Origin: Pseudomonadota bacterium
GTDB lineage: Bacteria; Pseudomonadota; Alphaproteobacteria; Micavibrionales; UBA2020
Direction of reading: 5' to 3'
Assembly (NCBI GenBank): GCA_021845905.1
Contig: JAJZVA010000003.1
Location: forward strand, 75,169-139,168
DNA length: 64,000 nucleotides
In this document: positions 34,340 through 39,640 of the stretch, one piece after another
Layout: the number at the start of each line of letters is the position of its first letter
Position numbering within the stretch: position 1 is the first letter of the stretch
The notes under the pieces: generated by a model
What the model was told of the DNA's origin: nothing
What the model saw: only the letters and a program-made list of their open reading frames with translations
Database searches by the model: none
Translations under genes and position numbers: made by a program

Positions 34340-34648
34340 TTAAAGCTTGATCTCGACATCGACGCCGGCGGCCAGATCGAGCTTCATCAGCGCGTCGATG
34401 GTCTGCGGCGTCGGATCGACGATATCCAGCAAACGTTTGTGCGTGCGCATTTCGAACTGCTCGCGCGACTTCTTGTCCACGTGCGGCGAACGCAAAACGG
34501 TGAATTTCTCAATCCGGGTCGGCAACGGAATCGGGCCGCGCACCTGCGCGCCGGTTCTCTTGGCCGTGTTCACGATCTCTTTCGTCGATTGGTCGAGGAT
34601 ACGATGGTCGTAAGCCCGGAGCCTGACGCGGATATTCTGAGAGTCCAT
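34340..34648 (-). CDS. rpsJ: 30S ribosomal protein S10
   Basis: S10 (NusE) is both a ribosomal protein and an antitermination factor. It contains [21 protein letters not shown] and [33 protein letters not shown]. The 102-residue length is normal. It starts the S10 cluster after a hairpin downstream of tuf. Confidence 0.98.
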
Positions 34649-34680
34649 TTTTTAGTCCCTTACCTTCTTTTTCCCTCATC

Positions 34681-34705
34681 CCCGCCCGTCACGATGACGG
34701 GCGGG
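34681..34705. terminator. Strong hairpin between tuf and rpsJ
   Basis: An 11-bp perfect GC-rich stem (CCCGCCCGTCA / TGACGGGCGGG) with a 3-nt loop lies in the tuf-rpsJ gap. No T run follows directly on the reverse strand, so it may be an mRNA end-stabiliser, processing site or partial terminator rather than a full stop. Confidence 0.55.
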
Positions 34706-34720
34706 TGAGAAGAGAACCTG

Positions 34721-35911
<1,191 letters not shown>

Positions 35912-35961
35912 TTTCTAGTTCCCTTCCTTTCAAGTTGAATGTAGTAGTTCCCCGTTAAAAT

Positions 35962-38043
<2,082 letters not shown>

Positions 38044-38067
38044 TTTTATTCCCTATTATCCTTGTCG

Positions 38068-38538
38068 TTACCAGCGGAAGTGCGCGAAAGCCTTGTTGGC
38101 TTCGGCCATCTTGTGGGTTTCTTCGCGTTTCTTGATCGCGGAGCCGCGCTCGGCGTGGGCATCCATCAGTTCGCCCGCGAGCTTCTGCTCCATGGTCTTC
38201 TCGCCGCGCTTCTCGGCCGCGGCCTTGAGCCAGCGCATGGCGACGGCCTGCGCGCGCGCGGGGCGCACTTCGATCGGCACCTGATAGGTCGCGCCGCCGA
38301 CGCGGCGGGACTTCACTTCGACCATCGGTTTGATTTTGTCGAGCGCTTCCTGAAAGAACACGATCGGATCCATCTTCGACTTGGCGGCGACGATCTCGAG
38401 CGAGCCGTAAACGATGCGCTCGGCGACGGACTTCTTGCCCGATTCCATGATGCAGTTCATGAATTTCGCCAGAACGATGTTGTTGAACTTCGGATCGGGG
38501 AGAACTTCGCGTTTTTTGGCAGAGTGGCGACGTGACAT
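38068..38538 (-). CDS. rpsG: 30S ribosomal protein S7
   Basis: S7 organises the 30S head. It begins [20 protein letters not shown] and contains [20 protein letters not shown]. The 156-residue length is standard. In E. coli S7 represses the str operon from the rpsL-rpsG gap, but here that gap is only 23 nt. Confidence 0.98.
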
Positions 38539-38561: not shown

Positions 38562-38933
38562 TTATTTCGGACGTTTCGCGCCGTAGCGGGAGCGCGCCTT
38601 GCGGCGTTTGTCGACGCCCTGCGTATCGAGCGCGCCGCGGATGATTTTGTAGCGCACGCCCGGCAAGTCTTTCACGCGGCCGCCGCGCACCAGCACGACG
38701 GAGTGTTCCTGCAGGTTGTGGCCGACGCCGGGGATGTAGCACGTGGCTTCGCGGCCGTTGGTCATGCGCACGCGGGCAACCTTGCGAAGCGCCGAGTTCG
38801 GCTTCTTCGGCGTCGTGGTATAGACGCGCGTGCAAACCGCGCGCTTCTGCGGATTCTGCTGCAGATCCGCGTTTTTCTTTTTCTTCACCTGCGGTGTGCG
38901 GCCTTTGCGCACGAGCTGGTTATAAGTTGGCAT
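38562..38933 (-). CDS. rpsL: 30S ribosomal protein S12
   Basis: S12 acts in the decoding centre. [13 protein letters not shown] holds Lys43, the residue of wild-type streptomycin-sensitive proteins, and [13 protein letters not shown] holds the aspartate that is often methylthiolated. The 123-residue length is normal. It is the first gene of the str transcript, preceded by a 300-nt structured leader. rpoBC, which often lie upstream, are absent. Confidence 0.98.
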
Positions 38934-38952: not shown

Positions 38953-39000
38953 TTTTGTTTTGCGGATAAAGTCCGCTTTTGTTTTGCGGATAAAGTCCGC
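38953..39000 (-). repeat. Perfect 2 x 24-bp tandem repeat in the rpsL leader
   Basis: Two exact 24-bp units (38953-38976, 38977-39000). Each encodes a small hairpin in RNA, GCGGA-CTTTA-TCCGC, followed by a single-stranded AAAACAAAA spacer. They lie about 20 nt before the rpsL start, where such hairpins could affect ribosome loading. Confidence 0.9.
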
Positions 39001-39083: not shown

Positions 39084-39230
39084 GGATGACCTGGAGAAAA
39101 CAAAACCCGTCGGTGCATCGATACACGACAGGCTCCTGATTTAAAATCAGCCCGCTTCCACTTTTCCCGCGGAAGCATCGGTTAAAAACCGGACTGCGTT
39201 TAGACCCAGAGGCCTACTACCAGTCCATCC
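39084..39230 (-). ncRNA. Structured RNA element at the 5' end of the str operon transcript
   Basis: On the reverse strand this 147-nt stretch is enclosed by a long-range stem (GGATGGACTG with CAGGTCATCC, one mismatch and one G-U). Inside are hairpins at 39179-39191 (CGGTT/AACCG), 39154-39176 (8 bp, GCTTCCGC/GTGGAAGC), 39136-39150 (CTGAT/ATCAG) and 39109-39129 (GTCGTG/CACCGAC). Two pairs are G-U only if read from the reverse strand, supporting that strand as template product. GGACTG in the closing stem can instead pair locally with CAGTCC, giving a possible two-state switch. No tRNA, tmRNA, 6S, SRP or riboswitch consensus fits. Confidence 0.55.
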
Positions 39231-39244
39231 TTACGAGCGTGGGA

Positions 39245-39272
39245 AATATAACACGGAAAACGCCCGCGTCAA
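39245..39272 (-). promoter_or_regulatory. Sigma-70 promoter of the str operon
   Basis: Reverse-strand TTGACG (39272-39267), a 16-bp spacer and TATATT (39250-39245) predict a start near 39238, about 8 nt before the structured RNA and 305 nt before rpsL. Confidence 0.7.
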
Positions 39273-39373
39273 CGATTCGTCGCGGCTTTTTTGATATTTA
39301 TTGCTAATTTTATGATTATTTCTTTATTTTTCATAAACTTAATGGAGGGGATTTTTTTAGACTATATATATTA

Positions 39374-39408
39374 TTCTGCCCCGATCCGAAAACCGAACCG
39401 GGGCAGAA
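39374..39408. terminator. Hairpin downstream of the small gene at 39443-39640
   Basis: A 10-bp stem (TTCTGCCCCG / CGGGGCAGAA, 39374-39383 with 39399-39408) with a 15-nt loop, followed by AT-rich sequence rather than a clean T run. It probably ends the reverse-strand transcript of the small gene. Confidence 0.6.
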
Positions 39409-39442
39409 AATTAAATTTTTCAGAAATATCGCCTGACGGGGG

Positions 39443-39640
39443 TTAACCCAGCTTGCGGCGCTTTATTTCCTGATTGACGGCCAGCAGAGCCTGCGATGTA
39501 GTGGCAAGGACGGTGGCAGGCCCCACAAACGCCTCAGGCTCCCAACGATTTTTCTCTCTTTCACAGTAAATCGACGCCAGCCCGAAAGCCTCTTTCAGCT
39601 TTTCTTCCATATCCAAAAGTTCTTTATTCGTCAGCGCCAT
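39443..39640 (-). CDS. Small helical protein, 65 aa
   Basis: The product MALTNKELLDMEEKLKEAFG... is helical and charged, with one Cys, and ends ALLAVNQEIKRRKLG. A ribosome-binding site GGGAG precedes the ATG. It resembles in length, LT-start and LxAVNQ end the small protein at 61925-62116, so they may form a family. Function unknown. It stands alone between the str operon and rplU, with a likely promoter and terminator. Confidence 0.65.
   Translation of the reverse strand: MALTNKELLDMEEKLKEAFGLASIYCEREKNRWEPEAFVGPATVLATTSQALLAVNQEIKRRKLG

Follow-up and report, generated by a model that had tools for sequence, protein, structure and literature searches.

To our knowledge, little is known about how Alphaproteobacteria keep the supply of their ribosomal proteins in balance. 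In E. coli, uL4 is the regulator of the S10 operon, whose leader mediates both uL4-dependent attenuation and translational repression. The E. coli site for repression by uS7, located between rpsL and rpsG, works at the level of translation (PMC10931766). Leaders upstream of rpsL have been described as attenuators of many forms that share no global feature and whose ligand is unknown (Naville and Gautheret 2010, PMC2965389), and a family named rpsL_ricks is found among the rpsL-leaders (PMC4683814). Meyer 2009 (PMC2704228) describes the Pelagibacter rpsL motif as a bulged P1 leading into a three-stem junction that occurs in Pelagibacter and marine metagenomes only, and its authors argued for a single control over the joined str-S10-spc run. 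A list of 20 further leaders was given by Eckert and Weinberg 2020 (PMC7247131), and a text search of that paper returned no entry for uS12 or uS7.

We analysed a 64,000-nucleotide stretch (the window; positions 75,169 to 139,168 of contig JAJZVA010000003.1) from a bacterium of the order Micavibrionales, in which the minus strand carries a structured RNA at approximately 39238-39084, downstream of a strong promoter and ahead of rpsL. The gene for S12, rpsL (38562-38933), opens a run that continues on the same strand with rpsG, fusA, tuf and rpsJ (34340-38538) and then the S10 and spc genes. Over 15 genes for ribosomal proteins and elongation factors lie downstream of one leader with no strand break. 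We assign a probability of roughly 0.6 to the reading that this RNA is the 5' leader of the joined str-S10-spc run and represents a new ribosomal-protein leader family working by feedback. Its role as a cis-acting leader of the run is, taken alone, very probable; feedback by a ribosomal protein, to which its position and conservation point, is probable, and the most likely function is that of a feedback switch signalling when ribosomal-protein synthesis should stop.

The promoter (39245-39272, minus strand) is exactly the one named in the original prediction: TTGACG at 39272-39267, a 16-nt spacer and TATATT at 39250-39245. It also has an extended -10 TG. Both TTGAC and the -10 box align in all 16 relatives, and from the promoter position transcription is predicted to start near 39238. 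The 147-nt span that was proposed to be strongly structured (39230-39084) and its described helices are found in the minus-strand sequence. Folding of 39246-39090 gives -59.2 kcal/mol, compared with -47.0 +/- 3.7 for 200 dinucleotide-preserving shuffles (z -3.3), none of which equals it; for 39272-39084, z is -3.1. Further upstream, a 65-aa ORF occupies 39443-39640 on the minus strand, and between it and the leader promoter a strong palindromic hairpin (TTCTGCCCCGGTTCGG.., 39372-39410) resembles a bidirectional terminator.

The core of the element is a hairpin, P1 (39191-39226, minus strand), in which an outer helix GGACTG/CAGTCC and an inner helix TAGGC/GTCTA flank a 4x4 internal loop, GTAG/AACG. 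The covariance model R2 matches it at 39233-39188 with 53.6 bits (E 5e-13), and its consensus is [GRNCUG]-GNNG-[UAG..CUA]-RACG-[CAGNYC]. In the rpsL-upstream stretches from 100 genomes of the source's order, the same element recurs right after the promoter as GGAU-[GGRCUG]-GNNG-[UAG...CUA]-RACG-[CAGYYC]. The P1 pattern, which itself includes pairing, is matched in 66 of these 100 genomes, and an alignment of 25 such pairing-selected sequences has 97% of its cells paired, with 48 double changes against 11.5 in shuffled alignments (0/500). Because the first pattern selects for pairing, we re-tested the helix in 54 distinct leaders located by anchors, with the informative positions left free and no selection for pairing. 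Pairing at outer positions 5-7 and inner positions 3-5 is seen in 43-53 of these leaders, where permutation means are 23-49, and at most one of 5000 permutations was as good at any of these pairs (0-1/5000). Kinship remains in the permutations; however, the same pair changes recur in different families. The GNNG/RACG loop stays fixed while the helices on either side vary freely. Thus the conserved, selected RNA expected at the head of the str operon is borne out by compensatory changes among relatives. A coding sequence appears unlikely and is rejected, as the helices change pairwise and loop lengths vary by non-multiples of three.

The second conserved interaction is a long-range stem, P0, which joins strand A (GGATGGACTGG, 39230-39220) to strand C (CCAGGTCATCC, 39094-39084) through 10 pairs, one of them G-U, and one A-G mismatch. 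Strand C lies about 150 nt before the rpsL start codon, placing the element ahead of rpsL as proposed; its CATCC is invariant in the source's family. Elsewhere in the order the segment is found again, usually at a distance of 30-110 nt from the start codon on the 5' side. The two strands covary across the order, with 24 of 20,000 permutations reaching the observed interaction in 55 leaders. Among 28 leaders with a single ATCC, picked regardless of positions 5-10, position 6 is paired in 26 (16 G-C, 6 A-U, 4 G-U; 7/2000 permutations). The signal is weaker at position 7 (114/2000), and positions 8-10 have no covariation. The closing stem that had been predicted is therefore present and conserved, over 6-7 bp rather than the strict 10 bp.

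The GGACTG of strand A doubles as the outer 5' strand of P1, where, as was also foreseen, it can pair locally with CAGTCC (39196-39191). Positions 5-7 of strand A covary with this local partner, and with the distant partner position 6 does so clearly and position 7 weakly. The minimum-energy fold (-60.6 kcal/mol) combines the long-range stem and the local hairpin, each with 5 bp, and a version with the 10-bp long-range stem is nearly equal at -60.0, 0.6 kcal/mol worse. Two covarying pairings that have GGACTG in common thus stand from the claim of mutually exclusive folds; since conserved P0 overlaps P1 by only 2-3 bp and the helices can mostly coexist, exclusivity itself is possible rather than demonstrated. 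Covariation with both partners is what alternating pairings would require, and a switch between P0 and P1 is plausible.

Between P1 and strand C lie smaller minus-strand hairpins: P2 (GGTTTTTAACC, 39180-39190), found across the source's family; P3 (GCTTCCGC-GGGAAAA-GTGGAAGC, 39154-39176), with an invariant loop and two pairs showing double changes in that family; and P4 (CTGAT..ATCAG, 39136-39150), with a double change at one pair. A conserved internal loop together with alternative pairings might also be expected of a small-molecule riboswitch or thermosensor of the ribosomal operon; outside the source's family, however, no junction or pocket is kept apart from P1, and the element is seen with ribosomal operons only, which makes such a sensor very improbable. 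Separately from these hairpins, the region between leader and rpsL (38953-39000) holds two tandem copies of GCGGACTTTATCCGC-AAAACAAAA, each a small hairpin, and their ACTTTATCC could pair with strand A too.

In the source's genus the element also contains, before strand C, an intrinsic-terminator-like hairpin (CCTGTCG..CGACGGG, -17 kcal/mol) with the U-tract TTTTGTTTT, together at 39097-39132 on the minus strand. Present with its UUUUGUUUU tract in 6/6 leaders of the genus, it lies between promoter and first gene, as in attenuators. Across the order, terminator-like sites occur in 21 of 66 leaders, compared with 8% of shuffles; they vary between lineages while P1 stays. Attenuation is therefore likely in some lineages, and for the source's genus the chances that it operates appear evenly balanced. 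The hairpin was not found in other genera of the source's family, so attenuation is not a mechanism shared by all. A candidate antiterminator formed by the outermost 5' sequence (CGC..AGG with CCU..GYG) seems unlikely: the pairing exists, but it appears in the consensus fold only, has no double changes and costs about 11 kcal/mol.

The same hairpin, placed before rpsL, could instead end a free-standing, trans-acting small RNA at the U-tract (39105-39097), a stable transcript of about 140 nt, with rpsL expressed from its own downstream promoter. We regard this as quite unlikely: in the window no second promoter-like site was found on the minus strand between the element and rpsL, sister genera have no detected terminator though the rest is conserved, and strong matches never occur away from rpsL or rpsJ. 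In three leaders from part of family f3 (L040, L044 and L046) we noted by eye a second promoter-like site, TTGAC-N17-CTAAAT, just before a CATCC close to rpsL, and in these genomes rpsL may have two promoters.

The cis-acting leader reading draws on the distribution of the element. Leader DNA is found in 16 of 18 available genomes of the source's family, a single copy in each, with 79-100% identity and always adjoining rpsL. When 385 alphaproteobacterial genomes were searched with a covariance model restricted to P1 (49 positions), 36 gave a match at E <= 0.01. The 30 best matches come from 18 families; 28 of them are just upstream of rpsL and two (genomes G182 and G494) just upstream of rpsJ; no strong match lies away from these two genes. 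In a phylum search of 398 genomes, matches outside Alphaproteobacteria were weak and none was near rpsL or rpsJ. By eye, both rpsJ leaders carry a terminator-like hairpin. In G182, tuf and rpsJ are separated by 476 nt, and P1 has a promoter-like TTGACA ahead of it. Where P1 stands at rpsL, the two genes are 72 nt apart in the window and 22-57 nt apart in four other genomes. The element would thus be placed at the start of the transcript that includes the S10 genes, whichever that is. The terminator-like hairpin, the spread of P1 across Alphaproteobacteria and its placement at rpsJ go beyond the original prediction. A second recurrent hairpin, GCAACAUCC...GGAUGCUCUGC or GCAAGAC...GUCCUCUGC, occurs in 27 of 167 rpsL-upstream stretches (1.5% of shuffles) from alphaproteobacteria, among them L201, L205, L214, L229 and others of family f3, L064, L081 and L093 of Rhizobiales, and L100 (Parvibaculum); by the same pattern it was not found in the source's family.

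How might such a leader work? We propose that one of the ribosomal proteins encoded in the run would bind P1 once it exceeds free rRNA, and that binding would stabilise one of the two overlapping pairings, the base of P1 or P0, so that expression falls. In the source's genus the effect could be exerted as attenuation, through the terminator-like hairpin between P1 and the 3' strand of P0; in lineages without a terminator it would perhaps fall on translation or RNA stability. As the part of the run from rpsJ onward is common to both genomic positions, the gene for the ligand probably lies at or after rpsJ. If a single protein reads the element everywhere and comes from the controlled unit, this argues against uS12 and uS7, though the rpsJ placement is known from two genomes only. 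Because uL4 controls the S10 operon of E. coli, it is our first candidate, a tentative one that rests on this analogy. P1 compared by pattern and by model with the 16S and 23S rRNA of the same genome gave chance-level matches, although leader binding sites that mimic a protein's rRNA site may do so purely in three dimensions, and the P1 motif is absent from the E. coli S10 leader (NC_000913), where we had considered the same motif; with P1 unlike both, the ligand is a guess.

General factors might also read the element, which would then serve growth-rate control or decay through Nus/S10 antitermination, RNase III or RNase E; a ribosomal protein dedicated to repression would then not exist. S10 is NusE, the closing stem is long and paired, the promoter is strong, and terminator-like sites vary while P1 is constant, all of which would suit this explanation. 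Nevertheless, an internal loop that stays fixed while its flanking helices vary freely resembles a specific binding site, and no boxA-like string is apparent by eye in the alignments; we consider it unlikely. As to how Alphaproteobacteria balance their ribosomal-protein supply, the core motif occurs in at least 18 families and its natural relocation to the S10 operon narrows the ligand, which together make the question directly testable, for example in the predator Micavibrio aeruginosavorus or other cultured Alphaproteobacteria.

Ribosomal-protein leaders are recognised by a recurrent same-strand 5' position and a conserved structure with compensatory changes, and we find both here. The element also lies outside known RNA families, as had been claimed. 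No Rfam family reached its gathering score in the window, or, rpsL_ricks and other leaders included, on the element or its relatives; none covered the element even at E <= 10, and tRNA and tmRNA searches gave no match on it. We therefore rejected tRNA, tmRNA, 6S, SRP or any Rfam family as its identity; the element has no RF00013 match, and the 6S RNA of this genome is at G000:C8:262407-262563 (52 bits). A bacterial small SRP RNA gene (L023 2829-2923, 57 bits) lies near the rpsL leader of a relative, G011. The element is a real, conserved cis-acting RNA of a known kind, unlisted as far as the open-licence literature goes.

Among the described systems, the E. coli uS7 site resembles it in controlling rpsL-rpsG-fusA, but the element here is found ahead of rpsL or, in two genomes, ahead of rpsJ, where rpsG does not follow directly. 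Like the E. coli S10 leader, the element stands before rpsJ in G182 and G494, there with a terminator-like hairpin; in the window, and in most other genomes that carry it, it stands before rpsL. The Pelagibacter rpsL motif is likewise a structured RNA heading this gene run in an alphaproteobacterium; it is described as a bulged P1 with a three-stem junction and a conserved J2-3. Compared with the rpsL-leaders of Naville and Gautheret and with rpsL_ricks, the element is without an Rfam match even at that permissive threshold, and its core is conserved across the 18 or more alphaproteobacterial families while the terminator is present in some only. It is conceivable, if still doubtful, that P1 with its GNNG/RACG loop is one ancestral regulator-binding module of the str-S10-spc run across Alphaproteobacteria, able to move from one of the rpsL and rpsJ positions to the other and recognised, through a fold without a copy of rRNA sequence, by a protein encoded in the S10/spc part. 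If so, this module would be the shared trait missing from previous surveys of rpsL leaders.
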